Of a stretch of 64,000 nucleotides of DNA, positions 1 through 17,035 are shown piece by piece; the stretch's first letter is position 1, and every line of letters starts with the position of its first letter. The stretch is from NCBI RefSeq assembly GCF_027889715.1, contig NZ_JAPJZH010000004.1:310001-374000 (forward strand). Reading direction: 5' to 3'. This stretch comes from Allohoeflea poritis. Its GTDB lineage: Bacteria > Pseudomonadota > Alphaproteobacteria > Rhizobiales > Rhizobiaceae. Made by a program: the position numbers and the translations under genes. The notes under the pieces are model-generated. The model searched no databases and was not told the DNA's origin. It saw nothing but the letters and a program-made list of their open reading frames with translations.

Positions 1-1
1 T

Positions 2-613: not shown

Positions 614-636
614 AAAGAAACCCGGACGCGACACAG

Positions 637-2166: not shown

Positions 2167-2168
2167 AC

Positions 2169-2324: not shown

Positions 2325-2607
2325 CCAAGTTCCTCCAGGGTTCGATGTACCGGTATGGATGCCCCGAATGTGGAGCCTGGCGCCCCCTATGCGCGTAGAA
2401 CGTGCGCGCGATGGTAACTGAGTCGGGGATTCTTGGGAACAGTGCGGGAGCCGGGTCTTCCTTGAGGGTTTTCCACCCAATTATTTGGCCGGTTCGGATC
2501 GGTTCGCGTTCAGATTGCTTGATGTGCGCGGCCCTGACGCTGCATGGTGCAAGGGTGGGCGGGCCTTCAAGGCCATGAGAAATTTCGCATCGGGATGGTG
2601 GGTATCG

Positions 2608-3060: not shown

Positions 3061-3232
3061 AAGAGTGTGGTGAGTCGATCAGAAACGCAGGTGTTCACAA
3101 AACACAGTCATGTGAGCTGAGTTAGTAGGTGCGAATGAGTACTTCTGAATGAGAATACCCATTGACATCGCAAATTGAGAGCACTAGAACAAAAAGAGAA
3201 CATTTGAAAATAGCTGGAAGAAATACAAAGAG

Positions 3233-3679
3233 CTAAGCAGTCGCTGTCAGCGTTGCTAGACGAGCTGCGTTGATTTCATTTTCGCATACGCTCAGGTCAA
3301 TGACGAATGCAAAACTCAACTGCCCATTCTGTGTCAGTGATTCCAGCGTGCCGTATTCGTGTAGGAAAATTTCTCGCCCATCGGTCACCAAATATTTCAT
3401 TTGGTCCTTTGCTTGTGGGCCGAGTTTTGCCCGCATTGTTCGGAGCCCCTTGGCGAGCCGCCGTACTTCAACTCCAGATTGCAGAAGCCGTGCAATTACC
3501 TTTAGAGTGAGTAGGTCGCCAAAATTAAACTGCCGCGCCCTGCCTCGCCCTCGAGTTTTTGAAGCGGAAGGGCGAACAAATTTCTCCCGACACAGGTAGT
3601 CGAGCATTGTCAGGGTTACACCGGACAATTTCGCTGCTTCAGATGCTGTGAATGTCAAAATTGGCATAAATTTATTCAT
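3233..3679 (-). CDS. MerR-like DNA-binding regulator of the HD island
   Basis: A 148-residue protein whose N-terminal 70 residues form a winged-helix region of the MerR type: ASEAAKLSGVTLTMLDYLCREKFVRPS followed by a basic KTRGRGRARQF wing and FGDLLTLKVIARLLQSGV. The C-terminal half has no recognised effector domain. It is transcribed away from the small unknown gene and the HD/nuclease gene, with 158 bp between the start codons. Inverted CATAG/CTATG repeats lie just upstream of its start and could be its operator. Base composition is clearly lower in GC than the core genes on either side. Control of the neighbouring genes is inferred from this divergent layout. Confidence 0.7.
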   Translation of the reverse strand: MNKFMPILTFTASEAAKLSGVTLTMLDYLCREKFVRPSASKTRGRGRARQFNFGDLLTLKVIARLLQSGVEVRRLAKGLRTMRAKLGPQAKDQMKYLVTDGREIFLHEYGTLESLTQNGQLSFAFVIDLSVCENEINAARLATLTATA

Positions 3680-3707
3680 AGATCATAGCTGAACTATGAA
3701 TTATGAT
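3674..3707. promoter_or_regulatory. Inverted repeats between the island regulator and its divergent genes
   Basis: CATAG at 3684-3688 and CTATG at 3694-3698 form a perfect inverted repeat with 5 nt between the arms. A further CATAG at 3677-3681 and an ATG at 3703-3705 extend the symmetry. The block overlaps the start codon of the MerR-like gene and could let that protein repress itself. This is seen by eye; no known operator consensus is matched. Confidence 0.4.
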
Positions 3708-3837
3708 ACACCAATGAAACGAATTTGACGAGAGATTCGTTTGAGCAAGCAGGGCTCGTTCGGCTATGGTGAATACCGAAGCGGTGTGAAGCAGTGCCTA
3801 CGACCCAGCGTAGGCTTTTAGACACCGGGAGATTGGC

Positions 3838-4254
3838 ATGGCAAATAGATATGAAAAAGCAGAGTTGCTTGCGGCGCTCTGGCGGTTGGGGGTTGATGGT
3901 GACGAGAGAATTCCGACATCGCATGGAGTGCTTGATCGCGCATTGAAAGCATCACTGGCAGATCTGCCGGAAGCGCTCAAAAGCGATCTTACTTTTCGGG
4001 TAACAGGTGTGGGCCTCCGATGTTTTGAATTGCCATCCATTCTATTGGCAGCACAAGAGGCTGAGTTTACTACGGAGCCAAATCCCACTTACTTGAGCTC
4101 AGTGGTGAACTTGGATGAAGATCGTGCTCGACAGATCGTTGTCGGCCACGGATTGAGTACAAAGGAAGCACAGCGAATAGGCGCTCTGTTGAGGCATAAT
4201 GCCGCAACTGCACGTAAAAGTAGCGAAGACATTTCAGATGTTTCTGCTGCATAA
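3838..4254 (+). CDS. Small unknown protein upstream of the HD/nuclease gene
   Basis: A 138-residue soluble protein with no signal peptide or membrane segment. I do not recognise a family. It looks mostly helical; the C-terminal part (LDEDRARQIVVGHGLSTKEAQRIG) could be a small helical domain. The start has a good ribosome site (GGGAG, 7 nt upstream). The HD-domain gene begins 6 nt after its stop codon, so the two are almost certainly cotranscribed and may be translationally coupled, which suggests a partner, inhibitor or sensor role. Codon use is AT-richer than the surrounding core genes. Confidence 0.7.
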   Translation: MANRYEKAELLAALWRLGVDGDERIPTSHGVLDRALKASLADLPEALKSDLTFRVTGVGLRCFELPSILLAAQEAEFTTEPNPTYLSSVVNLDEDRARQIVVGHGLSTKEAQRIGALLRHNAATARKSSEDISDVSAA

Positions 4255-4260
4255 TAGCAA

Positions 4261-6756
4261 ATGAGCGGAAGCTGCCTGCGCAAGCGTCTTTTGAAAGAAG
4301 CTCCACACCTGGCTTCCGAAGCTAACTCATTGATGTCCGGTTGGCTGGCTGAACTTCATCGGCAACTTGAGACTGGCGACATACCAGAGTTTAGGCCAAA
4401 GCAGGTTAATGACCCTATCTGGGGAACCATTGAGTTACTGCCTTGGGAGGTAGCGCTACTCGATACACCATTGCTCCAACGAATGAGGGGCGTTCGTCAA
4501 CTGGGACTTGCACACTTGGTGTTCCCTGGCGCAAGCCACGGACGCTTGGAGCATATAATCGGAGTGGTTGGTTCGATTGAAGAAGCGATGCGAGCACTCA
4601 GCCGCCAGATCGAGAGATGGAATCGCGACCAACCAGCCACACAACATATTGCTACGATCAGTAGCAGGGATCGTTATGCACTGCGTTTGGCAGCGTTGTT
4701 ACATGACATCGGACATGGGCCATTTAGCCATGCATTGGAACCGGTACTCTTGGCTGAAGACCCTTTAGGCGGCTCTTCCACGCAATCTGAAGCAGTTGGC
4801 TGGCGAGAAGATATAGAACGTGCGCGCGAAACATTGTCTGATGAGTACACCTTAAATTACCCACCCTCAGTCTCTGAGATTATTGCAGTGTTTTTCGTAA
4901 TGTCGGATGCTCTGCACAAAGTGTTCGCGAGCGACAAAATCCTTCGGGACCATAATTATTCTGCAACTGAGCTACAAGACGTCATCGTTGCGGCCATTAT
5001 TGGAGCATTGGCAGGTCCAGGCGCTACACATCTATCAGCTTTGGTAAGCAGCCAAATTGATGCGGATAAACTGGATTATTTATCGCGTGATGCACATCAC
5101 GCTGGTCTGGAAATTGGATTTGACACCGATCGACTACTTGCGAAACTTGAGATACTACGAGTCCGGCAAGACAACCTTGATGAAAATCTTGAGGATCTGC
5201 GGCAGCGAGCTGCTGAAAGCACCGATCAACTTTTCCTACAACTTGGTATTTCCGCATCCGGCTTCGGCTCATTCGAACAAATGCTGATTGGGCGAACATT
5301 CCTTTATGATCGCCTCTATCACCATCATAAAGTGCGTGCTGCCGAAGCCATGGCTCAGAGGCTCATACTGGTTGCAGAGAAAGAGCGCGCAAGGCGTTTC
5401 TCTTTGAGCGAGATTTTTCTTAGTGTTGATGATGACACCATATTGAGAATTTTGGCGGGGGAAGTCACTCACAATCAGCTTTCTGTGTCTTCAGCTTCGG
5501 CATCTACTTTGGCTCAAGACGTCCTCAACCGACGCTTGCTTCACAGGGCGTTCGCATTCAGAGGCCGGTTCATTGCTTCACCGCCGGGGTTAAGTGTTGA
5601 TAGCGCTGATCAAAATCGCAGAGCTCTCTGGTCGCGTATCATTAAGGATCTCGACGGCCTGTCTTCTCGGTTCAAAATCGGCGAAGAAATATACGAAACC
5701 GCGCTCAGGTGCTGTGATGCGATAGAGGAAGCTGGAAATGACAAAGAAAAAATGCAGCGTTTCAGAGGCCGCCTAAAGGAAATCGGACCAGAGCAGATTA
5801 TTGTGGATTTGCCCGGCAAGAAAGCGGAAGCTATTCGTGTTTTAGCACGATACCCGACGGGCACTATTCGCGTTCCAGAGTTTTCATTCAATCCAGTTAA
5901 GTGGTCTGACGCATATGACCTTCAAAAAAGAACCGGCTATGTTTTTTGTCCGCGTGATGTGGCTGCAATAGTCGGATTAGCATCTAAGATAGTTTTTCTC
6001 GGTCGCTATGGCGTTACTATGACGGAGGAAGCCGACGGATATATCAAGGCTTCTCAGGCACCAGATAACTGGATCGATCCGCTAAAACGGTCCGGGTTGG
6101 TCGATGAAACAATGGCGGACTACATCACAAATCGAAGATACTCGCTGTTGCAGTTGCGGCCGAGAGATCTGAAGTTGCCGGAACCGTGGCTTATAGAAGA
6201 TCCGGATCTGGCAGTTACGCTGTCTAATGAAATCCAAAAATTATTACAGGGCGGCCTGACAGCGGAGCATCTGACAGCTTTTGGAAAGGTTCTTGAAGTA
6301 CTCTTTGCATTCGTCGATGATTGGTATGCAGGACCGCAAATTTCGAGCGAACTAGAGGATGAAAACGCACTACAAGCCAAGCTACGAAGTGCTTTTCGGA
6401 TAAGCTCTCTAATTGTTGAAGAAGGTTCAGTTCTCGGTGGTGGAAAGCTTGACTTAGCTGTTGAAAACTCGATCCTTGTTGAAAACAAGTTCAAGCACAC
6501 AGCAGGTATTCCTGAAAAAGCATTTCCGGCTGCAGGAATGCAGGGTCGAAGATATGCGATCGCTTTAGGTTCGCAAGTGGTAATTGTTGTTGGCGCCCAG
6601 CGAGTTGAAGCCGGGGCATTGCCAAATAAATCTTCTTGCGTCTCTGTACGTCCGATTTTCAGTGGTGATCGCAATAGGGTAGAGATTAGATTTCTTCTGC
6701 CATTTGGTGCACCAATTCCATCACGAGAAAAGAAAGAAAACCCAACCAAGCCGTAA
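4261..6756 (+). CDS. SAMHD1-like HD phosphohydrolase with C-terminal PD-(D/E)xK-like domain
   Basis: An 831-residue protein. Residues about 50-300 match the HD core of SAMHD1/dNTP triphosphohydrolases: DTPLLQRMRGVRQLG (68-82), VFPGASHGRLEH (87-98), LLHDIGHGPFSH (146-157) and IDADKLDYLSRDAHH (266-280). The metal ligands are predicted as His98, His148, Asp149 and Asp269. The middle (about 320-690) is unassigned. Residues 716-745 read as a restriction-type nuclease core: Glu720/721, then GGGKLDLAV with Asp731, then VENK with Glu741 and Lys743, a D-x9-ExK pattern, followed by a helix and the strand VVIVVGA. The family hydrolyses dNTPs to nucleosides and triphosphate. A second nuclease activity and a phage-defence role are inferences from the fusion and context. 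The start at 4261 lacks a clear ribosome site and may depend on coupling to the gene 6 nt upstream. Confidence 0.8.
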   Translation: MSGSCLRKRLLKEAPHLASEANSLMSGWLAELHRQLETGDIPEFRPKQVNDPIWGTIELLPWEVALLDTPLLQRMRGVRQLGLAHLVFPGASHGRLEHIIGVVGSIEEAMRALSRQIERWNRDQPATQHIATISSRDRYALRLAALLHDIGHGPFSHALEPVLLAEDPLGGSSTQSEAVGWREDIERARETLSDEYTLNYPPSVSEIIAVFFVMSDALHKVFASDKILRDHNYSATELQDVIVAAIIGALAGPGATHLSALVSSQIDADKLDYLSRDAHHAGLEIGFDTDRLLAKLEILRVRQDNLDENLEDLRQRAAESTDQLFLQLGISASGFGSFEQMLIGRTFLYDRLYHHHKVRAAEAMAQRLILVAEKERARRFSLSEIFLSVDDDTILRILAGEVTHNQLSVSSASASTLAQDVLNRRLLHRAFAFRGRFIASPPGLSVDSADQNRRALWSRIIKDLDGLSSRFKIGEEIYETALRCCDAIEEAGNDKEKMQRFRGRLKEIGPEQIIVDLPGKKAEAIRVLARYPTGTIRVPEFSFNPVKWSDAYDLQKRTGYVFCPRDVAAIVGLASKIVFLGRYGVTMTEEADGYIKASQAPDNWIDPLKRSGLVDETMADYITNRRYSLLQLRPRDLKLPEPWLIEDPDLAVTLSNEIQKLLQGGLTAEHLTAFGKVLEVLFAFVDDWYAGPQISSELEDENALQAKLRSAFRISSLIVEEGSVLGGGKLDLAVENSILVENKFKHTAGIPEKAFPAAGMQGRRYAIALGSQVVIVVGAQRVEAGALPNKSSCVSVRPIFSGDRNRVEIRFLLPFGAPIPSREKKENPTKP

Positions 6757-7053
6757 ATTATTTGACAAAAGATCAGATAATTTTGGCAAATTCTGGACGG
6801 GTTAGTGGAGTGATTCTTAGATGTTACGTACTCGCAGCTGAGTAGCGCATCCCGGATGCAATAAGACTTCGGTCGTGTGCTATTGCCGACTTTTTGAGAA
6901 AATCTGGGGAGCAGGATTACATTCGAACTACGATCTCAACTTGCTAAGATCGCGCTGTACTTTAGTGATGCGTTTGTCGCTCCGGCGCCCGCCACGATCC
7001 GTCCTCGGCTTACTCCCAGATCACCAATTCAGGTCATGAGAACCTGCTGGCGG
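6757..7053. other. Intergenic right flank of the HD island
   Basis: About 300 bp without a credible protein gene. It holds the tRNA-like remnant described separately (6905-6972) and marks the change from AT-richer island sequence back to high-GC core sequence at about 6.97 kb. No integrase fragment or clear direct repeat with the left flank (3061-3232) was seen by eye. Confidence 0.5.
6905..6972 (-). pseudogene. Degenerate tRNA-like sequence
   Basis: Read on the minus strand, this stretch lines up with the intact tRNA-Gly gene at 16961-17035. It shares GTAxAGC at the end of the D arm, an anticodon-arm-like CTTxxCAAG (AGC in place of GCC), TTGxGxTCGT, GTTCGAAT as T loop, and GCTCC near the 3' end followed by CA. 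One or two bases are missing from the arms, the T stem does not pair and the 5' acceptor strand is not recognisable. It cannot be a working tRNA. It is best read as a decayed tRNA, possibly left by a past insertion at a tRNA gene. Confidence 0.4.
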
Positions 7054-7521
7054 TCAATGCGATTGCTCGTTCCTGCCATCGCGGATTGCCTTGAAGGCAT
7101 TGAGCAGATCGGCGCGGTTGTCGGCCACGAGGCTTTCCAGCGCCGCCACGCGTTCAGGCGTGAAATGGCCTTCCTTGTCCAGAATGTTGATCGTCCCCTG
7201 AACCAGCTCGTCATCTGAGACCGGGATATTCACGGCGGCTTCGCATCCCAGCGCATTGATCAGCGCATGGTCGGAGAAATAGGATGAAAATTCCGCCGTT
7301 TCATTGGCGACGAAGGTCTCGCCGCGCTCAAGAACGTGCCGCGTCCAGTCGTTCTCGCCCATGGGCTTGGTGCCGGTGACGGGGTAATCGTCCGGATGCG
7401 AGGAATAGGCCCGCCAGGCAAGCCCCGCAGTACGGTCGAGCAGTGTGACGGTGAAAAGCTGCGCGCCGCAGGCCGCCTTGGCTGCGGCGTGCAGAGCCGT
7501 GAAAGTATCCATGGGAATCAT
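7054..7521 (-). CDS. GAF-domain protein
   Basis: A 155-residue cytoplasmic protein made almost entirely of one GAF domain: an N-terminal helix (FTALHAAAKAA), a sheet strand QLFTVTLLD, the WTRHVLERGETFVANE segment, and GCEAAVNIPVSDDELVQGTINILD, the most typical GAF stretch. There is no output domain, so it may bind a small ligand or modulate another protein. It lies 53 bp downstream of the peptide-binding-protein gene on the same strand, separated from it by a GC-rich hairpin. Ligand and role unknown; the start could also be the ATG three codons later. Confidence 0.75.
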   Translation of the reverse strand: MIPMDTFTALHAAAKAACGAQLFTVTLLDRTAGLAWRAYSSHPDDYPVTGTKPMGENDWTRHVLERGETFVANETAEFSSYFSDHALINALGCEAAVNIPVSDDELVQGTINILDKEGHFTPERVAALESLVADNRADLLNAFKAIRDGRNEQSH

Positions 7522-7541
7522 GTCTCGCGCGATTGTGGCGA

Positions 7542-7566
7542 GCCCGGGCGCGCATGGCGCCCGGGC
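7542..7566. terminator. GC-rich hairpin between binding-protein gene and GAF gene
   Basis: GCCCGGGCG at 7542-7550 and CGCCCGGGC at 7558-7566 form a perfect 9-bp stem with a 7-nt loop. It sits 9 bp after the stop of the binding-protein gene. No T run follows, so it may be an attenuating or mRNA-stabilising hairpin rather than a full terminator, leaving the binding protein more abundant than the downstream GAF protein. Confidence 0.5.
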
Positions 7567-7574
7567 ATCAGTTC

Positions 7575-9170
7575 TTACTGCTTTTCAACGAGGCGGTAAT
7601 AGACGTAGTCGGCATTGGCGCCGTTCACGAAGCCGGTGACCGCATCATCCATGGCGACCTGCTTGACCGCCTGGAACATGATCACGAAAGGCGCCTCTTC
7701 CTGCATGGCCTGCTGCAACTCGACATACATCTTGTTGCGGGCCTCGGGATCCTGCTCGGCCAGAGCCGCCTTGGTCTTTTCATTGATCTCCGCCGGAGGC
7801 ATCCACGCATTGCGCCACGTCGTGGTCGAGACGTATTTGTCATCGGAATTGTCGGCGTTGTAGGCGAAAGCCTTGGCGTTGGAATGCGGGTCCATGAAGT
7901 CCGGTCCCCAATAGAGCAGCATGCCCTCATGGGTGCGCGCACGATACTTGGTGATGACCTGCGCACCGGTGCCCGGCAGGATCTCGAAGTTGATGCCGGC
8001 AGGGGCGAAGGTCTGCTGCAGGCTCGCTGCGATGTCGGTGAAGGGTTCGGCGTTGATCACGTCAAGCTCGATCGTCAACGGCAGTTCGACGCCTGCTTCC
8101 TCGAGAATGGCCTTGGCCTTTTCGGGGTCGTATTCGAACGGCGTTTCCGTCAGCGCACCGGGGAAGCCTTCGGGCCAGAACGCCTGATGCACTTCCATCT
8201 GCCCTTTCAGGAAACTGTCGGCCATGCCGTTGTAATCAACCAGATAGCGGGATGCTTCCCACAAGGCGGGGTTGGTCAGCGGTTCGTGTTTCTGGTTGAA
8301 GCTGAACCAGTGCACAGCGGTCTGCGGGTAGGTTTCCACCTTGATGTCCGCGTTGCCCGAAAGACCGGCGATCTGGTCGGGCGTCAGGTTCTTGGCCATG
8401 TCCACATCGCCCGACTCCAGAAGCAGGCGCTGGGTGGCAGCCTCCGGCACATGGCGGATCATGACGCGTTCGATCGCCGGTGCCGTGTTCCAGTAATTGG
8501 GGTTGGCCTGAAGCATCAGCACTTCACCCGGCGCATAGCGGGCCAGTGTGAACGGGCCGGTCCCGGCGCTGTTCTGGTTCAGCCAGGCATGACCCAGATC
8601 GCCATCCACCTCGTTGGCCATCGCGGTCTTGACGTCGACGACAGCAGCTGGGCGCGCAGCCAGCACGTTCAGGACAAAGGAGGGTGCGAAATCGCCGGCC
8701 CAGCGGACGGTCACGGTGTTGCCGTCGACGGTCACCATTTCCTCGATGTTTTCGGCGGTCCAGCCCAGGTTCTCAAGGATAAAGGCCGGGGCTTTCTGCA
8801 ATACCAGGACACGTTTCCAGCTTTCCAGAACGTCTTCCCCGCGCAGCGGGTTGCCGGACGAGAACTTGACGCCATCGCGCAGCTCGAATGTCACTGTCTT
8901 GGCTGCGGCATCGATATCCCAGCTTTTTGCCAACCCGGGAGCCAGCTTGGTGGTGTCATCAGCATCGTACTGAACAAGCTGGTCATAGGTATTGGCGACA
9001 TATTCACCCGAGGTGAATTCATAGGCCGAGGCCGGATCGATCGTCACGATGTCATCGATGTTCTGCGCGATGACCAGCGCGTTGGCGGGCGTGTCGGCCA
9101 CCGCCGGCACCGCGGACAGCGCAAACACGCTGACGGCCGCCGCCGCGATGAGATTCGGTATGTGTTTCAT
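7575..9170 (-). CDS. Peptide/nickel-type ABC transporter substrate-binding protein (SBP_bac_5)
   Basis: A 531-residue periplasmic binding protein that delivers its ligand to the permease/ATPase complex encoded divergently (9884-13345). A signal peptide (MKHIPNLIAAAAVSVFALSAVPAVA) precedes the mature start at about residue 26. Family hallmarks follow: LAPGLAKSWDIDAAAKTVTFELRDGVKFSSGNPLRGEDVLESWKR, cut here into its typical segments near residues 70-120, and GTGPFTLARYAPGEVL near 210. The start is placed at 9170, with GGAGAG just upstream; its ATG overlaps the stop of the regulator gene (TGATG), so the two are coupled. The ligand is probably a short peptide or amino acid derivative but cannot be read from the sequence. 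Confidence 0.9.
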   Translation of the reverse strand: MKHIPNLIAAAAVSVFALSAVPAVADTPANALVIAQNIDDIVTIDPASAYEFTSGEYVANTYDQLVQYDADDTTKLAPGLAKSWDIDAAAKTVTFELRDGVKFSSGNPLRGEDVLESWKRVLVLQKAPAFILENLGWTAENIEEMVTVDGNTVTVRWAGDFAPSFVLNVLAARPAAVVDVKTAMANEVDGDLGHAWLNQNSAGTGPFTLARYAPGEVLMLQANPNYWNTAPAIERVMIRHVPEAATQRLLLESGDVDMAKNLTPDQIAGLSGNADIKVETYPQTAVHWFSFNQKHEPLTNPALWEASRYLVDYNGMADSFLKGQMEVHQAFWPEGFPGALTETPFEYDPEKAKAILEEAGVELPLTIELDVINAEPFTDIAASLQQTFAPAGINFEILPGTGAQVITKYRARTHEGMLLYWGPDFMDPHSNAKAFAYNADNSDDKYVSTTTWRNAWMPPAEINEKTKAALAEQDPEARNKMYVELQQAMQEEAPFVIMFQAVKQVAMDDAVTGFVNGANADYVYYRLVEKQ

Positions 9171-9784
9171 CAGTCTCTCCCTTTGGTGTTGTTGTTGGAA
9201 TTGGCCGAGGGCCTTGGCCCAAGCAGCCTTGGTGAAGTGCCCGTCCACAACAATTTGGCCGGGCCGTTACCGATATTGGCGAAGGCGTGGGGCGTATCCC
9301 CCATGAAGTGCAGGCTGTCGCCGGGATGCAAAACGAACTGCGCCCCGTCCAGCGATTGGCGAACCGTTCCCTGCAGCACGTAGATCAGCTCTTCGCCGAA
9401 ATGCGCGGTCACCTCGGACGCGTAGTGTTCGGGGATATGTATGATGAGCGACGAAATCGTACCGCCCGGAAGGGTGGTCGACACATGCTCGTAGGACAGG
9501 GATGAATCGTCCAGCGCGAATTGCGGCCGCTCGCCCTCGCGCGTTACGCTGTCAGACGGTTTGGGATTGGAGACGAAGACATCAACGCCCACACCCAATG
9601 TCGCGGCGAGGCTGGCCAGCGTCCCCAGGCTTGGTGTGGCTTTACCGCGTTCCACCTGGCTCAGGAAACCAACCGAGATGCCTGCCTGATCCGCCAGTAC
9701 CTGCAATGTCAGGTTGGCCTTGCGGCGCATATCGCGAATGCGCCCGCCAAATGCCGGGGGGCGGGCGTAGTCCAATTTCGTCAT
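9170..9784 (-). CDS. Xre-family regulator with C-terminal cupin domain
   Basis: A 204-residue regulator. Residues about 12-70 are a helix-turn-helix of the Xre/Cro type (IRDMRRKANLTLQVLADQAG, then SVGFLSQVERGKATPS). Residues 115-185 are a cupin barrel (HFGEELIYVLQGTVRQSL, LHPGDSLHFMGDTPHAFAN). This SutR/PuuR-like architecture usually senses a small molecule and represses adjacent transport or catabolic genes. It is coupled to the binding-protein gene by a 1-nt overlap and is divergent from the permease operon, so control of the whole importer is likely. Start taken at the ATG at 9784; the longer frame upstream runs antisense to the permease gene and is not credible. Confidence 0.88.
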   Translation of the reverse strand: MTKLDYARPPAFGGRIRDMRRKANLTLQVLADQAGISVGFLSQVERGKATPSLGTLASLAATLGVGVDVFVSNPKPSDSVTREGERPQFALDDSSLSYEHVSTTLPGGTISSLIIHIPEHYASEVTAHFGEELIYVLQGTVRQSLDGAQFVLHPGDSLHFMGDTPHAFANIGNGPAKLLWTGTSPRLLGPRPSANSNNNTKGRD

Positions 9785-9883
9785 GTGTTCAGACGCAGGG
9801 CTCCAAATAATAATTGTGATGTTAGTAAAAAAATTTTGATGGGTCAAAGCACCTTTGCTAACCATAAGTAAAGGGAGTCCATA
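9785..9883. promoter_or_regulatory. Divergent promoter region of the peptide importer
   Basis: This 99-bp AT-rich gap separates the regulator gene from the permease operon and must hold both promoters. GTTAG at 9821-9825 and CTAAC at 9858-9862 are inverted, one possible binding site for the Xre-cupin regulator. The site call is weak. Confidence 0.4.
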
Positions 9884-10897
9884 TTGACCCGAGTCCTGCC
9901 CGCCGCTCAGTTCCTGCTGACCTTGGCCGTAACCTTCCTCGGTCTGCTGGCGATCACATTCGTGATCGGCCGCGTGGTCCCCATTGACCCGGTGGTGGCC
10001 GTCGTCGGTGACCGCGCCAGTATCGAGACATACAACGCGACGAAAGAGGCGATGGGGCTCGACGATCCGCTGGTGGTGCAGTTCGCCCGTTATGTCGGCC
10101 AGGTGGCTCAGGGAGAGCTTGGCACGTCCGTCTCGACCGGTCGCCCGGTGGCGGAGGACCTGGCCCGCGTTTTTCCCGCCACATTCGAGATGGCGACGCT
10201 TGGCATCATCATCGGCGTGGCGCTCGGCGTTCCGATGGGCGTGTTCGCGGCGGCGCGTCAGGGGCGGATGGCGGATCAGATCATCCGCGTCATCGGTCTG
10301 GCGGGCTACGCCATTCCTGCCTTCTGGCTGGGCCTGATCGGTCTGGTGATCTTCTATGCCCATCTGCGCTGGGTCGGCGGGCCGGGGCGGATTGATTTTT
10401 TCCTGGATGGCATGGTGCCCACGCACACCGGTCTGCTGCTCGTCGACAGCCTTATTGACGGAAACCTGGAGGCATTCAGAAGCGCTCTGTCGCACATCAT
10501 CCTGCCCGCCACCATCCTTGGCTTTTTCGCCCTGGCCTATATTGCGCGGATGACGCGCAGTTTCATGCTCGAGCAGCTCGGGCAGGAATTCATCACCACC
10601 GCCCGCGTCAAGGGCGTGCCGGAACGGCTGATCCTGTGGAGACATGCGTTCCGGCCCATACGCGTGCAACTGATCACGGTCATCGGCCTGAGCTATGCCG
10701 GCCTGCTCGAAGGCTCTGTCATGATCGAAACGGTTTTCAGCTGGCCGGGCATTGGCAACTATCTGACGACGGCGCTGCTGAACGCCGACATGAACGCCGT
10801 ATTGGGCGCGACGCTGGTGATCGGGGCTGTCTTCGTCGGGATCAACAAAGGGTCCGACGCGCTCTACCGCCTGCTGGATCCGAGGGCACGCGCATGA
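9884..10897 (+). CDS. ABC transporter permease, DppB-like
   Basis: A 337-residue inner-membrane permease with about six membrane helices. It has the N-terminal helix common to DppB proteins (LLTLAVTFLGLLAITFVIGRVVPIDP, in two segments), a periplasmic loop, and the EAA-type cytoplasmic loop EFITTARVKGVPERLILWRHAFRP near 230-255, which contacts the ATPases. The start is a TTG at 9884, supported by GGGAG 8 nt upstream; no ATG or GTG fits. It is the first gene of a four-gene unit in which every junction is a 4-nt ATGA overlap. Together with the next gene it forms the membrane channel of the importer. Confidence 0.92.
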   Translation: MTRVLPAAQFLLTLAVTFLGLLAITFVIGRVVPIDPVVAVVGDRASIETYNATKEAMGLDDPLVVQFARYVGQVAQGELGTSVSTGRPVAEDLARVFPATFEMATLGIIIGVALGVPMGVFAAARQGRMADQIIRVIGLAGYAIPAFWLGLIGLVIFYAHLRWVGGPGRIDFFLDGMVPTHTGLLLVDSLIDGNLEAFRSALSHIILPATILGFFALAYIARMTRSFMLEQLGQEFITTARVKGVPERLILWRHAFRPIRVQLITVIGLSYAGLLEGSVMIETVFSWPGIGNYLTTALLNADMNAVLGATLVIGAVFVGINKGSDALYRLLDPRARA

Positions 10898-11796
10898 TCA
10901 CACGAGGCTGGCTATTGTCGGATGATCCCGAAACCCGGATGCAGGCGCGGCTGGGGGTCTCCTATCGGCTGGCGCGGGACCTCATGCGCAACCCGCTGGC
11001 GATGGTCGGGCTGATGATCATCCTCGCTCTTTTGCTGGTGGCGGCCTTCGCTCCGTGGCTTGCTCCCTATTCTCCCGTCGAAGGGACGCTGGCCGACCGT
11101 CTGCAGCCGCCTTCGGCCGCCCATTGGATGGGTACCGACGAACTGGGCCGGGATATCCTGTCCCGCGTGATCTATGGCGCACGCATCACCTTGATGATCG
11201 TGTTGCTGGTGGCGATCATATCGGCCCCTCTCGGGCTGCTGATCGGAACGGTCGCGGGTTATTTCGGCGGTTGGGTGGATCGCGTGCTGATGGGGCTGAC
11301 CGACATCTTCCTGTCCCTGCCCCGGCTGGTTCTGGCGCTGGCCTTTGTGGCCGCGCTCGGTCCGGGGATCGAAAACGCGGTGATTGCCATCGCGATTGCC
11401 GCCTGGCCCGTCTATGCCCGGATCGCCCGCGCCGAAGTGCTGACCTTTCGCAATTCCGAGTTTCTCGACGCGATCCGGATGCAGGGCGCCTCGCGGCTGC
11501 GTATCATCGCGCGCCATGTCATGCCGCTCTGCATTTCCTCGACCATTGTCCGCGTTACGCTCGATATGGCCGGCATCATCCTGACAGCGGCGGGCCTCGG
11601 CTTTCTGGGCCTGGGCGCGCAACCGCCCCTGCCCGAATGGGGCGCTATGATTTCACGCGGGCGCTCCTTCATACTGGATCAGTGGTGGGTGGCCACCATG
11701 CCGGGCTTTGCCATCGTCATCGTATCTTTAGGGTTCTGCCTGTTCGGCGACGGTCTGCGCGACGTGCTGGACCCGAAACAAAGGTCGCGCGGATGA
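10894..11796 (+). CDS. ABC transporter permease, DppC-like
   Basis: A 300-residue permease that pairs with the DppB-like subunit. A short cytoplasmic N-terminus with LMRNPLAMVGLMIILALLL as first helix is typical of DppC/OppC. The segment HWMGTDELGRDILSRVIYGARI is the conserved DppC N-terminal motif. The EAA loop is EFLDAIRMQGASRLRIIARHVMP. The start overlaps the previous stop by 4 nt. Longer open frame upstream lies within dppB-like sequence in another frame and was discarded. Confidence 0.92.
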   Translation: MITRGWLLSDDPETRMQARLGVSYRLARDLMRNPLAMVGLMIILALLLVAAFAPWLAPYSPVEGTLADRLQPPSAAHWMGTDELGRDILSRVIYGARITLMIVLLVAIISAPLGLLIGTVAGYFGGWVDRVLMGLTDIFLSLPRLVLALAFVAALGPGIENAVIAIAIAAWPVYARIARAEVLTFRNSEFLDAIRMQGASRLRIIARHVMPLCISSTIVRVTLDMAGIILTAAGLGFLGLGAQPPLPEWGAMISRGRSFILDQWWVATMPGFAIVIVSLGFCLFGDGLRDVLDPKQRSRG

Positions 11797-12614
11797 GCCT
11801 TTTGTCGGTGGAAAATCTGCGCGTCACCTTTCCGACGGATCACGGGCCTGCCGATGTCGTGCGCGGCTTGAGCTTCACCCTGGGGCGGGAGCGGCTGGGG
11901 ATCGTCGGCGAGAGCGGATCGGGCAAGAGCATGACGGGCCGGGCCATCATGGGCCTTGTTCCGGCACCGGGAAAAGTGACAGCCGATCAGTTGATGTTCA
12001 ACGGCAAGGATTTGCGCGGCCTGTCCGAAGATGAAAGGCGCGACCTGCGGGGCACCGCGATGTCGATGGTGCTGCAGGACCCGAAGTTCAGCCTGAACCC
12101 GGTGATCAGGATCGGCGAGCAGATTGAAGAAGCCATGGCCGTTCACGGCACGCTCGGCAGGCGCGAGCGCCGCGAGCGGGCGCTTGAAGCCCTGACCGCC
12201 GTGCGCATCAAGGACCCGGAGCGTGTGGCGCGTCTTTTTCCGCATGAAGTGTCCGGCGGGATGGGCCAACGGGTCATGATCGCGATGATGGTGGTGCTTG
12301 AGCCCGCCCTGATGATCGCCGACGAGCCCACAAGCGCGCTGGATGTTTCGGTGCGCGGCCAGGTGCTCGACATACTTGCCGATCTCGTGTCGCGGCGCGG
12401 CATGGGTCTGATCCTGATCTCGCACGATCTCAACATGGTCGCGCGCTGGTGCGACCGTATCCTCGTGATGTATCGCGGGGAGATTGTCGAAGAGATCGCT
12501 TCCGGCGCGCTGATGGATGCACAACATCCCTACACGCGCGGCCTGGTGGCCAGCCTGCCGACAATAGACGAAACCCGCGACCGTCTGCCGGTGCTGGACC
12601 GGGGCAAGCTATGA
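11793..12614 (+). CDS. ABC transporter ATPase, DppD-like
   Basis: A 273-residue ATPase that powers the importer from the cytoplasmic side. Walker A is GESGSGKS (39-46), the Q loop VLQDPKFSLNP, the ABC signature VSGGMGQRV and Walker B LMIADEPTSALDVS; the H loop is in LILISHDLN. The HPYTRGLVASLP stretch near the C-terminus is the start of the short oligopeptide-transporter tail; most of the usual Cys-rich end is lacking, so the protein is somewhat short for DppD (about 325). The start overlaps the upstream stop by 4 nt. Confidence 0.92.
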   Translation: MSLLSVENLRVTFPTDHGPADVVRGLSFTLGRERLGIVGESGSGKSMTGRAIMGLVPAPGKVTADQLMFNGKDLRGLSEDERRDLRGTAMSMVLQDPKFSLNPVIRIGEQIEEAMAVHGTLGRRERRERALEALTAVRIKDPERVARLFPHEVSGGMGQRVMIAMMVVLEPALMIADEPTSALDVSVRGQVLDILADLVSRRGMGLILISHDLNMVARWCDRILVMYRGEIVEEIASGALMDAQHPYTRGLVASLPTIDETRDRLPVLDRGKL

Positions 12615-13345
12615 TCCACGTCAAGGACCTGTCCGTCAGTTTCAGCGATGTGCGTGTCCTGCACGATGTCTCGTTCGATGTCGCAACGGGCGAAAGCTTC
12701 GCGCTTGTCGGGGAATCGGGTTCGGGAAAGTCGACCATCCTGAAGGCACTGGCGGGCCAACTGCCGGCGTTCACCGGGACCTTGAGGATCGGTGAGGATA
12801 ACGACACCGATCGGCCATTCTCGGCCCGCGACCGCGCGCGCCAGGTTCAGATGGTGTTCCAGGACCCCTATGGCAGCCTGCATCCGCGCCGCACCATCGA
12901 CGACACGCTCAACGAGCCGCTGCTGATCCACGGACTGCCGGACCGCGACAGCAAGGTCATCGCCATGCTGGACGCGGTCGGCCTGCCGCGACGGTTCCGG
13001 TTCCGCCTGCCGCATCAGCTGTCCGGCGGGCAACGCCAGCGCGTCGCGATTGCCCGTGCGCTCATGCTGAACCCGCCTGTCCTGCTGCTGGACGAGCCCA
13101 CCAGCGCCCTTGACGTGAGCGTGCAGGCGGAAATTCTGAACCTGCTCAAATCGCTGCGGGAAGAAAAAAACCTGACCTTCCTGCTGGTCACCCATGATTT
13201 GCCCGTCGTCAGCTTTCTGTGTGACCGGCTGGCAATTCTGCACGCGGGCCGCATCGTTGAAACGGCGAACACGGAAGCCCTTCGGTCCGGACAGTTGTCG
13301 TCGTCCTACGGGCAGGAGCTATTTCAGCGGTCCGTCTACGGCTGA
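12611..13345 (+). CDS. ABC transporter ATPase, DppF-like, short form
   Basis: A 244-residue ATPase, partner of the DppD-like subunit. Walker A GESGSGKS (34-41), Q loop MVFQDPYGSLHPRRTI, signature LSGGQRQRV, Walker B VLLLDEPTSALDVSVQ and an H loop in LLVTHDLPVV are all present, so it should be active. It ends soon after the NBD, lacking the 60-80 residue oligopeptide C-terminal domain of typical DppF (about 330). Such short forms are known in DppDF pairs. The start overlaps the upstream stop by 4 nt; it is the last gene of the operon and converges with the FkbM gene. Confidence 0.9.
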   Translation: MIHVKDLSVSFSDVRVLHDVSFDVATGESFALVGESGSGKSTILKALAGQLPAFTGTLRIGEDNDTDRPFSARDRARQVQMVFQDPYGSLHPRRTIDDTLNEPLLIHGLPDRDSKVIAMLDAVGLPRRFRFRLPHQLSGGQRQRVAIARALMLNPPVLLLDEPTSALDVSVQAEILNLLKSLREEKNLTFLLVTHDLPVVSFLCDRLAILHAGRIVETANTEALRSGQLSSSYGQELFQRSVYG

Positions 13346-13388
13346 CGCGGGAATTGATGCGGATGCCGATTGCGATTGTCCAGGCCTG

Positions 13389-14204
13389 TCATCTTGCTCT
13401 AAACCAGCAATCCGGCAGCACGATCTCGTCTCGTGACGCAACGTTTGGCCGATCCAGATGGTGGGGAAAGGTGTGCGCCGGCGATTTCTGCTCGATCCGA
13501 TCGTTTCGCAGAAACGTAAATTCCATGACTGAGGGAATCTCGAGTCCGTGAAATTCAATCACGGGCGTGTTGTTGTTCGGGTGCAGATGCACCACGGTGT
13601 GGTTTCTGAGCAGTTTGTCAAACACGGCTTTTGCAAAACGAAACCCTGTCCTGCCCAAAAACAAAGGCAGGTCGTGAAACTCAACAACCATTATCCGGAA
13701 ACGGGACAGAACGTCCTCCGGGACATCGAGAATGACGTCGTATTCGGTCCCTTCAATATCCATCTGCAGGATCAGATCATCGTCCGGGGCACATCCCGAT
13801 GTCTCCACCCAGTCGCCCAGCCTGATGGTCGCCTCGTCATTTGTCGTCCCGACAAATTTCTTTTCAAAGCTGAAATGCGGATTCGGGCTGGCCGGTCCCT
13901 CGACGGAATGGTCGGCCAGAAAGGAGCGAATGTCGCGTTTTGCAAGATCTGTTTCGAATTCGCTGACGTCTCCGACGCCGGGTGAAAAGCAAGCCAGTAT
14001 CCCTTCGAGATCATCCGGCACAAGATATCCGCCGTCCGTATCGCCGCCCAACCGGATCAAACGGTGCTGCGTTGTAACCGGTCGGAGCGATTTGAGAAGC
14101 TGGTTCAGGACCTGATGACCGACCCAGCGTTCGACCAGAAAGCCCTTGCGTTTGACATACCAGCGTACAACTCTCGTGGATCCCACTTCGCGCGCCCATT
14201 GCAA
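13389..14204 (-). CDS. FkbM-family methyltransferase
   Basis: A 271-residue protein of the FkbM-type SAM-dependent methyltransferase group. GGDTDGGYLVPDDL (about 53-66), SPGVGDVSEFE, LILQMDIEGTEYDVI (near 145-158) and IMVVEFHDL are the family landmarks. Members O-methylate sugars in polysaccharides, lipids or other natural products; the acceptor here is unknown. The frame opens at a TTG at 14204 without a clear ribosome site; a GTG at 14186 is an alternative. It stands alone between the transporter operon and an accessory stretch. A second gene of the same group begins at the far end of the window. Confidence 0.78.
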   Translation of the reverse strand: MQWAREVGSTRVVRWYVKRKGFLVERWVGHQVLNQLLKSLRPVTTQHRLIRLGGDTDGGYLVPDDLEGILACFSPGVGDVSEFETDLAKRDIRSFLADHSVEGPASPNPHFSFEKKFVGTTNDEATIRLGDWVETSGCAPDDDLILQMDIEGTEYDVILDVPEDVLSRFRIMVVEFHDLPLFLGRTGFRFAKAVFDKLLRNHTVVHLHPNNNTPVIEFHGLEIPSVMEFTFLRNDRIEQKSPAHTFPHHLDRPNVASRDEIVLPDCWFRAR

Positions 14205-14440
14205 GCATCGATAAAATTGTGTTTCGAGCTAAAGACAATAATGTGAGAAATACAAGCTGGACCGGCGCTTGTTCCACGGCCGGTTGGCCGGGATCGGACT
14301 TGCCGGCTGCGGCTTTGACCAGGGCTCTGCGCTAGACTGGATGGAAGTCCTCACGTCACTTCAGTTGTCTTCGCCGCTGCTCCCACATCCATTTTGACGC
14401 CGATTGGCAACTTTGTGGAGTGTCAAGTCGTCTTAGAAAA

Positions 14441-15769
14441 CTAGAAATCTGTTTTGTGTTTCTTGTGAACTAGCTCGACCAAAAAATCATATGTACCCTC
14501 TAGGGCCCAATCCTTACGGCTAGCCTTTATTGTGACATTGCAGCAGTCGATGACAAAGGTACGTCCGGATAACAACGCGCCATTGTTATCCAGTCGTAAT
14601 TCCAATCCCATTTTGTCAGTAATTGCCTGTAGCTCTTCCATTAGCCTGTACAATGCCGCTGTTTCCGTGGCCATCTGCCGGACGTCCAAACTAAGCAATA
14701 GTCGAGTTGCAACGTGAGCGTCACCCTCGATCGAATAAGACAATTGATTGGCGAACGCACCCTTTTCCAAATCAACATAGTTGGAACTTGCGCGCCATTC
14801 TTCCCCGCCTGACCAGAGTTGTTTGTAATGGTGGGGGCGCAGAGCTTCGTCCCTCGGGAATTTCATGGCTGCGAACGGAGACCAGCCATCCTCCACTGGG
14901 ATTTCCGGTGGCTTAGCTTCAACAGCCCGTCGCATCTTCACAACGGAAAATGTGCTGTCGAGATCAGATATCGTTTGTATGTCAGCAATGGCAACTTCAT
15001 GAAACCAGCGGTTTAAGCCGTCCAAGTCAAACGCATAGTGCCATAGGGCACATCTTTTCGCGCTGCTCCTGAGGGAGGCATCCTTTAATTGGAAGTTTAA
15101 GCCAATAAAGCGAGTCTCGAAGGTGATCAAAGTGATCAGCGCAAAATGGAATGGAAGAATCAGAAGGGACAGTAAGATGGGAAGTAGGAAGTCTTTCAGC
15201 GTTCGCGTATTCCAGAAACTGTCTGGATCAAACCAGATCGATGTAAATCCAATAATCAGAAGCGATAGTCCAAAGACTGAGAGCAAAGTGTTTAAGAACC
15301 TTGTGGCAAACTCGTTCTCTGGCTTCCCTTCTGAAACCGACAAAAGCAGCACCAAAAAAGTTAAAACTGGCAAAATGAGTAATTCCACCATCAGATTGAA
15401 CGTCTGAAACGTCACAACATATTCAACGAAAATAATGACGCCAAGTTGGCTACGAATTGCTTTTGACAAGAGTTTCCTCGTGTCGCGCAGAGAAATCACC
15501 TCGAAGATACCCGCTATGCCGGCGCCTATGGTCCATAAGATCGTCGCCTTCAGCAGGGATATATCCCAAACCCCAATCAACCAAAGGAGGTATGAAATCG
15601 CCGCAACGTAAACGAACAAACCTACGAAAATAAACAAGATCTTGGGGCTAACGAACGCCTTGAGAACACTTACCAAGGCAGAGCGGAGTTCCGCTTTCAG
15701 CGCAAAGAACAGAAATATGGGTATTATCCATATGAGCAGCGCAATATCCCGATTTGTCAGAAAATCCAC
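14441..15769 (-). CDS. Polytopic membrane protein with large cytosolic C-terminal domain, unknown
   Basis: A 442-residue protein with about seven hydrophobic segments in its first 230 residues (for example IALLIWIIPIFLFFAL, ILFIFVGLFVYVAAISYLLW and FLLPILLSLLILPFHFALI), followed by a soluble domain of about 210 residues. I recognise no family. The GTG start at 15769 is preceded by a strong ribosome site (GAGGTGA). Base composition is clearly AT-richer than the core genes, which points to transfer. It lies in the accessory stretch next to tRNA-Gly, 225 bp downstream of a HEPN-like gene on the same strand. The membrane-plus-cytosolic layout would suit a sensor or an effector; neither is shown. 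Confidence 0.65.
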   Translation of the reverse strand: MDFLTNRDIALLIWIIPIFLFFALKAELRSALVSVLKAFVSPKILFIFVGLFVYVAAISYLLWLIGVWDISLLKATILWTIGAGIAGIFEVISLRDTRKLLSKAIRSQLGVIIFVEYVVTFQTFNLMVELLILPVLTFLVLLLSVSEGKPENEFATRFLNTLLSVFGLSLLIIGFTSIWFDPDSFWNTRTLKDFLLPILLSLLILPFHFALITLITFETRFIGLNFQLKDASLRSSAKRCALWHYAFDLDGLNRWFHEVAIADIQTISDLDSTFSVVKMRRAVEAKPPEIPVEDGWSPFAAMKFPRDEALRPHHYKQLWSGGEEWRASSNYVDLEKGAFANQLSYSIEGDAHVATRLLLSLDVRQMATETAALYRLMEELQAITDKMGLELRLDNNGALLSGRTFVIDCCNVTIKASRKDWALEGTYDFLVELVHKKHKTDF

Positions 15770-15994
15770 AAAGTATCACCTCGGCATATTTTGATATCCA
15801 GATAGGCACTGCATGTGAGCTTTAGCTTAGCGCTTACGGGTCGTCTGCTTCGGTCTCGAAACAAATAGGGCTCAAGTGTAGCGATTGGCGAGTTCTGAAA
15901 GGCGGGGCTACAAAGCCTCCAGCGGCTCGACGGTTCCGTCTCGTGGCCGCCCAGCCTTATTTAATGAATTGGAATGACGCGTACTCGATCGGTG

Positions 15995-16501
15995 CTATTG
16001 TTTTTGCGCCCGAATATCATCAATAACCTGTCTTACCGCGTCGATCATTTTGAGTGCAAAGCCTTTGTGATAGAATAGCTCTTTATGCTCGTGCGAATAT
16101 CGGAATTCCTCGAATCCTTTGCTGATGACGTCCATCTGGTCTTTATAGTCGTCAAGTGTCCAGTGATAGATGTTTCTCATATGGATCTCGGCTATTTTGG
16201 TCTGTACGTCGGGCGGTAGCTTCTCAAAAAGTTCCCTGATGTTGTGACCTCGCTGCCGCCGACCTAGCGCTTCGAACACGGCTTTCACGAACAGCTCGAC
16301 CGAGAACGCTAGACATACAAAATCCGAAACCCCGATATGCTCATCCGTTGCATAGCAGACTTGATCAACAGATGGACTGTCTGAATGGTCAAGGTTTTGT
16401 CTCTGCGCGCGACGCTTCTGCTCGGCTTGTAGCGCCGCCTCGTTTCGTTCAAGAATGCGGTATGCGTTAAGAAAAAACTGCGCTTGGGTAGTGATCGCCA
16501 T
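15995..16501 (-). CDS. HEPN-like domain protein, predicted RNase-type fold
   Basis: A 168-residue helical protein. SVELFVKAVFEALG (67-80), then RGHNIRELFEKLP (84-96) and a late R134-YSHE-H139 segment fit the HEPN fold and its catalytic Rx4-6H motif. HEPN proteins are often metal-independent RNases in toxin-antitoxin, abortive-infection and related systems. No MNT-type antitoxin gene is adjacent. The start at 16501 has AAGGTGG upstream; the longer frame to 16597 adds a low-complexity N-terminus and is less likely. It is the gene nearest the 3' end of tRNA-Gly in the accessory stretch. RNase activity is an inference from the motif. Confidence 0.65.
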   Translation of the reverse strand: MAITTQAQFFLNAYRILERNEAALQAEQKRRAQRQNLDHSDSPSVDQVCYATDEHIGVSDFVCLAFSVELFVKAVFEALGRRQRGHNIRELFEKLPPDVQTKIAEIHMRNIYHWTLDDYKDQMDVISKGFEEFRYSHEHKELFYHKGFALKMIDAVRQVIDDIRAQKQ

Positions 16502-16960
16502 AGCCCACCTTACCGTCTCGAAAGCTTGAGTACTACATGATGTACCTTCGGTGCTCCGTGACGCTGAGCGGCCCGTCGGTGGCAGGAAAGCGGACACTCT
16601 TACGTTGCGTTGGTATCGACGCTTTGGGTTCGATCAGGGACTTTCGACGCAATCACACACTGATGTCGGCTATGGGGCTAACGGATTGCTGCCTAGTGAA
16701 TTCTCAGCACCGAATACAAGTGCCACAAATATTCCACGTCAACGCTTAGTTCCCGAATCCGGATTGAAACAGGCGGCTCTGTTAGCTGCCGCAAACGCAC
16801 GGTATCTGGCGTTCCGGTGGAGACATTCACGATCTTGCTGGTTGGATTTGCTGGTCCTCCCAACTCACCGATATCTGGTTCTTTGGTGGACACCCACGGG
16901 AAAATCGCAAGCTGCTCAATATTCACCTGCGACGCAAACAACTGTTTTTATTTGGAAAAC
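16502..16960. other. Non-coding stretch between the HEPN gene and tRNA-Gly
   Basis: About 460 bp with several short open frames on both strands but none with a ribosome site, recognisable domain or steady codon pattern. The longest (16551-17024, plus) runs through the tRNA gene and is an artefact. A minus-strand frame at 16693-16941 (82 codons) could be a gene remnant but nothing in it is recognisable. I see no integrase. Confidence 0.5.
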
Positions 16961-17035
16961 TGGAGCGGGCGATGAGATTCGAACTCACGACCCCAACCTT
17001 GGCAAGGTTGTGCTCTACCCCTGAGCTACGCCCGC
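16961..17035 (-). tRNA. tRNA-Gly(GCC)
   Basis: A complete 75-nt tRNA with encoded CCA. Acceptor arms GCGGGCG and CGCCCGC pair fully, with U as discriminator. The D arm reads AGCTCAGGGGTAGAGC. The anticodon stem CAACC/GGTTG holds the loop TTGCCAA with anticodon GCC. The T loop is TTCGAAT. The gene is on the minus strand, and the accessory stretch begins directly beyond its 3' end, the usual side for tRNA-targeted insertions. Confidence 0.97.

Follow-up and report, generated by a model that had tools for sequence, protein, structure and literature searches.

A rare, mobile cassette joining a SAMHD1-type HD phosphohydrolase to a predicted PD-(D/E)XK nuclease is probably an undescribed anti-phage defence system

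Depleting nucleotides and cleaving DNA are distinct strategies against phages. In the dGTPase defence attributed to Tal et al. 2022, an HD-domain dNTPase is reportedly the effector, and we take SAMHD1-like HD phosphohydrolases to be of the COG1078 type. Clover, in the available part of its description, consists of two genes encoding the dGTPase CloA and the nucleotidyltransferase CloB, and CloA is a defence dNTPase able to sense dTTP (PMC12265719). In this study, we analysed a window of 64,000 nucleotides from Allohoeflea poritis that contains a three-gene cassette. Its 831-aa protein has the fold, the catalytic residues and the AL1-type residues of SAMHD1 and COG1078-type proteins but adds a C-terminal PD-(D/E)XK domain. 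The cassette shares a predicted HD-domain dNTPase with dGTPase defence and differs from it in having a fused nuclease, a partner and a regulator; the PADLOC dGTPase model matched the large protein over 35 residues only, at E 0.001, which leaves it outside that family. Clover likewise combines an HD dNTPase with a partner gene and is a bacterial defence found in defence islands, but the available part of the paper describes CloA as having an HD domain and a helical bundle and mentions no nuclease domain (PMC12265719), whereas the nuclease is fused here. We rejected the identification of the cassette as Clover, as its partner is a 138-aa orphan without a nucleotidyltransferase match, unlike CloB. 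On the nuclease side, PDDEXK_4 (PF14281) and PDDEXK_9 (PF08011) have the core order D, E-x-K, Q-xxx-Y in register with the C-terminus, which differs from both in lying under Pfam detection and in being joined to a dNTPase-type domain. No family model was found for an HD plus PD-(D/E)XK architecture, and no description of an HD-nuclease fusion came up in a literature search that left most subscription journals outside its reach. The features of the locus are as follows.

3061..16954, no strand: region that varies among strains, flanked by conserved chromosome and tRNA-Gly
about 3061-6897: three-gene cassette, at the left end of the strain-variable region
3233..3679, minus strand: divergently oriented 148-aa transcriptional regulator of the MerR type (MerR_1 exceeds the Pfam cut-off at E 5e-8)
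3717..3742, no strand: putative operator, a AAACGAAT-N10-ATTCGTTT palindrome inside the divergent promoter gap
3838..4254, plus strand: 138-aa small partner protein of an orphan family
4261..6756, plus strand: 831-aa fusion of a SAMHD1-type HD phosphohydrolase with a PD-(D/E)XK-type domain
4393..6180, plus strand: SAMHD1-like catalytic core, from residue 45 (phmmer, Foldseek, residue conservation)
6328..6753, plus strand: PD-(D/E)XK domain, residues 690-831 (motif conservation, hhalign, AF2 order)
6898..6960, minus strand: degenerate copy of the tRNA-Gly 3' part and flank, an attachment-site-like remnant just past the cassette
16961..17035, minus strand: tRNA-Gly (gcc), found by ARAGORN, bounding the variable region on the right

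The preliminary description of this DNA had proposed an AT-rich island with three genes, one of them a divergent MerR-like gene, and SAMHD1-type motifs in the large protein. All three open reading frames lie where it had placed them, the divergent gap (3680-3837) measures 158 bp, Pfam recognises the MerR-like gene, and the motifs are present. The island is also AT-rich. Its three genes have a GC content of about 49% (48.7-49.4%), compared with 62% for the chromosome (62.6% at positions 1-3060 and 62.2% at 17.05-64 kb). A genome of the same genus (G007, locus L046) aligns to window positions 201-3060 and again from 16955, with 86-88% identity, and has 3.9 kb of different DNA where the window has 3061-16954. 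The tRNA-Gly remnant at 6898..6960 aligned to 16955-17018 with a local score of 54, while the best of 300 shuffles scored 32 and the maximum among 300 random window stretches, excluding those close to either site, was 42.

We compared the large protein with SAMHD1 by sequence and by structure. The phmmer match had an E-value of 2e-24 and covered residues 46-160 and 264-298, and Pfam detected HD (9e-6) and HD_assoc_2 (1.4e-5). The best Foldseek matches were SAMHD1 structures, with 8d94_A at E 3.3e-13 over 581 columns and a TM-score by target length of 0.67, obtained with an AF2 model of modest quality (pLDDT 71.6, and below 50 in segments 723-728 and 759-764); we placed the core end at about residue 640 as an estimate based on Foldseek alignment length. 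Residues H98, H148, D149, H152, H157, D267 and D269 are invariant in 10 of 10 aligned homologues, and all of these except D267 we take to be the HD metal site and catalytic histidine. Some non-catalytic letters of the motifs differ among homologues, for example E97 of LEH. Both active sites are kept even where overall identity falls to about 36% (HD in 10/10, nuclease in 11/11 sequences). Sequence and fold both identify the large protein as a SAMHD1-type HD phosphohydrolase with a predicted dNTPase activity; the genome encodes a separate HD gene as well.

The AL1-type residues K47, N50, D68, Q73 and R76 are invariant in all 10 fused proteins. Presumably, K47 and N50 correspond to K116 and N119 of SAMHD1, and D68, Q73 and R76 to D137, Q142 and R145 in SAMHD1 numbering. 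The phmmer alignment pairs the latter three with the same letters in the AL1 stretch of SAMHD1, and the AL1 residues include D137, Q142 and R145 according to the available part of PMC7045340. In the seven stand-alone relatives aligned, one of them a 114-aa fragment (L008), K, N and D never occur together (0/7), while Q and R are present in 7/7; the six full stand-alone relatives have 452-510 aa and no ExK. Hence, judged from these alignments, the fused family retains the SAMHD1 AL1-type (GTP/dGTP) residues, which are partly lost in stand-alone relatives. This pattern would suit an HD domain that works as a sensor, in which dNTP or GTP raised by a phage binds the allosteric site, the nuclease kills, and dNTP hydrolysis resets the switch, and CloA offers a precedent in its dTTP sensing as a defence dNTPase (as far as described in the available part of PMC12265719). 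However, the HD catalytic residues are no less invariant than the allosteric ones, and therefore hydrolysis itself seems to be under selection. The nuclease part also changes faster than the HD core, with 47-56% versus 61-70% identity to the window in the seven closer intact relatives. We consider the sensor role possible but doubtful.

The 138-aa partner gene lies directly upstream of the HD gene at 12 of 12 loci, with identities of 37-62%. The locus set of 12 includes the window and was drawn from chromosomes, plasmids and IMG/VR contigs. The AF2 model of the small protein has a pLDDT of 90.8, and by eye its order of helices and strands resembles that of a winged helix. Nothing exceeded the cut-off in Pfam, NCBIfam or PADLOC, and the best Foldseek matches were not significant, either in the PDB (E 0.37, to DarTG, followed by origin-recognition proteins) or in BFVD (E 0.029, to a Sulfolobus virus protein). 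Two candidate families were tried and rejected: Panacea antitoxins (PF13274; profile from 13 of 14 matches) gave an hhalign probability of 0.4%, and UPF0758_N (PF20582; profile from 18 of 32 matches) 0.2%, both with scores inside the range of 100 shuffles. UPF0758_N reached E 0.012 in 1 of 8 members of the 138-aa family, under the cut-off.

A divergent MerR-like gene was confirmed at 8 loci. MerR_1 was the top match for 8/8 divergent genes scanned, exceeding the cut-off in the window and L016 only (E 0.0007-0.073 for the remaining six). In the inverted-repeat scan, the palindrome at 3717..3742 was equalled in 3.5% of 200 base shuffles, and AAACGAAT-N10-ATTCGTTT has its sole exact match within the window there. 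An operator-like palindrome, GGGGTTRACCCC, is common to 7 relatives. The MerR-type switch appears to have been swapped along with its own operator.

The cassette is rare. It is absent from 7/7 other genomes of the genus, turned up in no genome but its own in draws of 385, 398 and 397, and occurs in 2/394 of a family-level sample. Among 50,697 phage records, none covered 80% of the large protein (9 matched in part) and none matched the small protein; a first scan of IMG/VR gave no match and a profile scan gave two. Partial plasmid matches to the large protein stop by residue 403. Several features point to mobility: location on plasmids, a neighbouring TniQ gene, a cluster of GTA/phage structural genes, the tRNA-Gly remnant and the absence of the cassette from same-genus genomes. 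The presence of 4/12 loci on plasmids, found by searching a plasmid collection, could point to a toxin-antitoxin pair, in which an HD-nuclease toxin and a small antitoxin stabilise a plasmid or element and are retained through addiction and not for phage defence; the small-then-large gene order with a short gap, typical of such pairs, and control of the MerR type are consistent with this. Against it, the small protein lacks a Panacea match, a homologue occurs on one R. leguminosarum plasmid without an HD gene nearby, and numerous neighbours match defence models. We regard addiction as unlikely.

We next turn to these neighbours. At 9 of the 12 loci, at least one neighbour matched a PADLOC model, including Septu, CBASS, DSR2, type IIG restriction and Qat-like systems. 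In total, 20/40 neighbours, picked by eye, had matches versus 0/10 control ORFs from the window, a small control in which one ORF is possibly not a gene. No match was found among the neighbours scanned in the window, L017 and L049. According to the preliminary description, homologues mainly in housekeeping contexts without the small gene would have spoken against a defence role; the counts for PADLOC-matching neighbours (9/12) and the small gene (12/12) run the other way. Because relatives often adjoin known anti-virus genes, the cassette is, by genomic context, probably an undescribed anti-phage defence system. A housekeeping enzyme for DNA repair or the dNTP pool, with a resection nuclease and no defence role, could explain L017, a MAG locus where none of 6 neighbours matched PADLOC and the surroundings look housekeeping by eye, and a role in promoting DNA end resection is described for human SAMHD1 (PMC9640623, available part). 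Such a role is improbable for a cassette that is rare, patchy, low in GC and in mobile contexts, in a genome that already has its separate HD gene.

The C-terminal domain had no significant match in Pfam or PDB sequence searches. Its positions E721, D731, E741-N-K743 (the E741-x-K743 signature) and Q761-xxx-Y765 are invariant in 11/11 aligned sequences, and the AF2 model has the alpha-beta-beta-beta-alpha-beta order expected for PD-(D/E)XK. In hhalign, the comparison with PDDEXK_4 members scored 32.3, in register with the catalytic residues, versus 20.1 for the best of 200 shuffles, using a profile of 6/8 matches (two with an internal stop removed) of which two lie under the family cut-off. 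The comparison with PDDEXK_9 (11/16 matches) was marginal, with 1/200 shuffles above the true score. The preliminary description had named a missing PD-(D/E)XK match as a refutation of its proposal, and the profile comparison finds PDDEXK_4; together with the non-housekeeping contexts, this supports its reading of a defence module. We infer that the C-terminus is a PD-(D/E)XK DNA nuclease, with cleavage predicted. A PD-(D/E)XK-derived domain that only binds DNA or proteins, in a module acting through dNTP depletion alone, would fit the faster evolution of this part and its non-recognition by Pfam but is very unlikely given catalytic positions and a QxxxY motif that are invariant in 11/11 sequences and needless for mere binding.

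Overall, we give a probability of about 50% to a mobile anti-phage cassette that couples a guanine-nucleotide-gated dNTPase to a DNA nuclease under the control of a partner and a MerR-type regulator. In the mechanism that we infer, the MerR-type protein would bind the divergent-promoter palindrome and hold expression low until a cue arrives. Upon infection, the enzyme would be freed or assembled in response to altered nucleotide pools or to a phage product that the small partner senses. Its HD domain would deplete dNTPs and stall replication, and the nuclease would then cut the exposed DNA, so that phage replication would be blocked and the cell may die. More tentatively, a single polypeptide might combine AL1-type guanine nucleotide sensing, dNTP destruction and coupled DNA cleavage at stalled forks, and the 138-aa protein might sense infection or act as a safety catch.

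Because the two catalytic centres are sharply defined, point mutants offer a direct test. If the proposal is true, a single protein with the marks of both anti-phage strategies, a constant orphan partner and a MerR-type switch would represent a new coupling. The large protein would then be a single-chain bacterial counterpart of the human link between SAMHD1 and nuclease-driven resection, and would provide a compact model of the coupling between dNTP hydrolysis and nuclease action, a question that is open for human SAMHD1.

The preliminary description had read an AT-rich island of the window as a possible undescribed defence module. Positions and lengths of the three genes, the 158-bp gap and the motifs that it cited were all confirmed, and the cassette genes have 48.7-49.4% GC compared with 62% for the chromosome.

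Genes of the cassette in the window
3233-3679, minus strand, MerR-like regulator
3838-4254, plus strand, small partner of 138 aa
4261-6756, plus strand, large protein of 831 aa, a SAMHD1-type HD phosphohydrolase fused to a PD-(D/E)XK-type C-terminus

The best phmmer matches of the HD half were bacterial HD phosphohydrolases (6e-25) and human SAMHD1 (2e-24), and a 7-sequence profile matched 2hek at 1.6e-34 and SAMHD1 at 4e-33. SAMHD1 also topped the Foldseek results (8d94_A, E 3.3e-13, 581 columns, TM-score by target length 0.67) for an AlphaFold2 model of the large protein made from 7 sequences (mean pLDDT 71.6). Residues H98, H148, D149, H152, H157, D267 and D269 are invariant in 10/10 proteins aligned over these positions, a set without the metagenome-assembled L017 and the split gene of L023. 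In the phmmer alignment K47, N50, D68, Q73 and R76 have the same letters as the SAMHD1 stretch holding the AL1 allosteric site, for which we assume the SAMHD1 numbering and take K116 and N119 to be AL1 residues. D137, Q142 and R145 of SAMHD1 are AL1 residues (PMC7045340). The five aligned cassette residues are invariant in 10/10 fused proteins; seven stand-alone bacterial relatives, of which one comes from the same genome as the window and one is a 114-aa fragment without the K and N columns, kept Q and R in 7/7, K in 2/7, D in 1/7 and N in 0/7.

Within residues 690-831, E721, D731, E741-x-K743 and Q761-xxx-Y765 are invariant in 11/11 sequences, L017 having E-L-K in place of E-N-K. The modelled elements (helix 701-714; strands 719-721, 732-734 and 738-745; helix 760-768; strand 773-781) are predicted in the PD-(D/E)XK order, with 723-728 and 759-764 below pLDDT 50. 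Searches of Pfam and PDB sequences with the nuclease half gave nothing significant, the C-terminus from L022 grazing MTES_1575 at E 0.1. When 11 C-termini were aligned as a profile with one of 6 PDDEXK_4 members, the score was 32.3 and the probability 50.6%, with D, ExK and Q/Y in register; none of 200 column shuffles scored above 20.1, and the reversed profile scored 11.2. An 11-member PDDEXK_9 profile scored 21.0, exceeded by 1/200 shuffles, and the middle and HD parts gave probabilities of at most 0.5% with the same two profiles. The preliminary description had staked its reading on a PD-(D/E)XK match at the C-terminus, and the PDDEXK_4 comparison supplies one with the catalytic residues in register.

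The 138-aa gene lies immediately upstream of the large gene in 12/12 loci, comprising the window, five GTDB genomes (L015-L019), four plasmids (L020-L023) and two IMG/VR contigs (L048, L049). The 11 loci besides the window were retrieved with the large protein as a query, and a second Methylocystis record duplicating L023 was excluded. No family passed the cut-off for the small protein, and its model, although confident (pLDDT 90.8), had no significant fold match; Panacea and UPF0758_N were tested as its identity and rejected. A relative with 49% identity is encoded on Rhizobium leguminosarum plasmid pRlX5 (L025 5995-6354), with no HD-nuclease gene nearby within the 12 kb read.

MerR_1 was the top Pfam match for the divergent gene in 8/8 scanned (window, L015 in part, L016, L018, L019, L021, L023 and L048). 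It was above cut-off in the window and in L016, with E 0.0007-0.073 in the remaining six. L020 has a divergent gene at the same place, outside these eight, and none was noticed in L017, L022 and L049. The operator-like palindrome AATGGGGTTRACCCCATT matched in the divergent gap of 7/9 loci having this gene, with 0-2 mismatches in L015, L018, L019, L020 and L023 and 4 in L021 and L048, and is present twice in the gaps of L021, L023 and L048. Elsewhere in the 12 sequences, a limit of 4 mismatches gave three further matches, each with 4. The L016 gap had no match. BLAST of the window's regulator against those in the nine loci searched gave no match, and the palindrome in the window's gap is a different one; regulator and operator therefore seem to have been exchanged together.

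Palindrome in the window's gap
3717-3742, putative operator AAACGAAT-N10-ATTCGTTT (base shuffles as good in 3.5%)

Another genome of the genus, G007 (locus L046), is collinear with the window as far as base 3060 and resumes at base 16955, at the tRNA-Gly gene; between these flanks its DNA did not match the window apart from a 27-bp tRNA fragment.

Features at the putative integration site
6898-6960, decayed tRNA-Gly 3' part and flank, directly after the cassette, by local alignment score
14444-15769, minus strand, 442-aa protein without any family
15998-16597, minus strand, HEPN-domain protein (Pfam HEPN 6.9e-7)
16955-17035, tRNA-Gly edge of the variable region

The decayed copy had a local score of 54, compared with at best 32 in 300 shuffles and 42 in 300 stretches drawn at random from the window away from both sites. 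The collinear flanks and this copy place the cassette in what seems to be a tRNA-Gly integration hotspot; no integrase was noticed among ORFs listed near it. The 27-bp tRNA-Gly fragment in G007 lies in the same variable region (L046 3792-3818), which makes the site look like a hotspot used repeatedly. A second AT-rich segment (50% GC), encoding the HEPN-domain and 442-aa proteins, adjoins tRNA-Gly and is possibly another mobile defence-like insert; its proteins gave no match in a PADLOC scan.

A full-length homologue of the large protein was found in its own genome only, among 101 genomes. The small gene was found in 1/385, 1/398 and 1/397 genomes (its own each time) and, within the family, in 2/394, the second having the coordinates of the L015 copy; these draws overlap, and with at most 10 candidates scored per genome divergent members may be missed. 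From record titles, we take the hosts to be Rhizobiales, Rhodobacterales, Sphingomonadales and a Desulfosarcina. On the Methylocystis parvus plasmid an IS6-family element interrupts the HD-nuclease gene, whose halves (L023 7986-9299 and L077 3863-5164) lie ∼33 kb apart on opposite strands. Roseibium and Rhizobium plasmids carry a set that looks like another nucleotide-directed system.

Four-gene set on these plasmids
L074 267-3886 and L076 664-4455, radical SAM protein, 3'-5' exonuclease, AAA family ATPase and stand-alone HD protein

We scanned 40 neighbours, picked by eye, with PADLOC (threshold 1e-5), and 20 matched, in 9/12 loci, with L015 and L020 being near-identical and non-independent. 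The matches were Septu PtuA in L016 (6e-127), L020 (4e-109) and L021 (9e-174), a PtuB fragment in L015, DSR2 in L018 (1.3e-138), a type IIG restriction model and TniQ in L019, CBASS cyclase, E2 and SAVED-HNH in L020, CBASS cyclase, E1-E2 and NucC in L022, QatC in L048 (3e-53) and, as weaker evidence, a QueC model in L023 (3e-13), where an annotated restriction endonuclease had no match. Neighbours in the window (4 proteins), L017 (6) and L049 (2) gave none, nor did 10 control ORFs of the window outside the cassette, one possibly not a gene. A DUF2235 gene lies near the cassette and beside Septu genes in two different plasmids (L021 9154-10302, L020 12913-14082) and may accompany it repeatedly. 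The two genes in L049 lie within a gene-transfer-agent or phage structural cluster (192-13504; Phage_HCP ... Phage_TAC_6 ... GTA_TIM), between a head completion protein and a tail assembly chaperone, followed by BR0599/Gp84, NlpC/P60 and GTA_TIM; this is a defence-type cassette inserted in a GTA or prophage. The preliminary description had set against itself homologues mainly in housekeeping contexts and lacking the small gene; most loci have neighbours matching PADLOC models and all have the small gene. Its facts are right, and its reading survives on this point and on the nuclease match.

For this architecture or partner, PADLOC 2.0.0 and NCBIfam 20.0 had no model above cut-off, Pfam gave nothing above cut-off beyond HD, HD_assoc_2 and MerR_1, and no paper on it was among those listed by the literature searches. 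Clover shows that a nucleotide raised by phage can switch on a bacterial HD dNTPase and that the product of a partner can hold it in check (PMC12265719). The cassette may work in an analogous way, but with a different partner protein and a nuclease-type domain in its large protein it was not classed as Clover. What the sequences themselves show is the architecture, the invariant residues of both active sites, the linked partner gene, the operator-like palindromes, signs of mobility and a defence context. We infer that expression would be low until infection; the large protein, gated by guanine nucleotide, would then hydrolyze dNTPs with its HD half and cleave DNA with its nuclease half, the partner would act as a sensor or safety catch, and the cassette would thereby confer protection.
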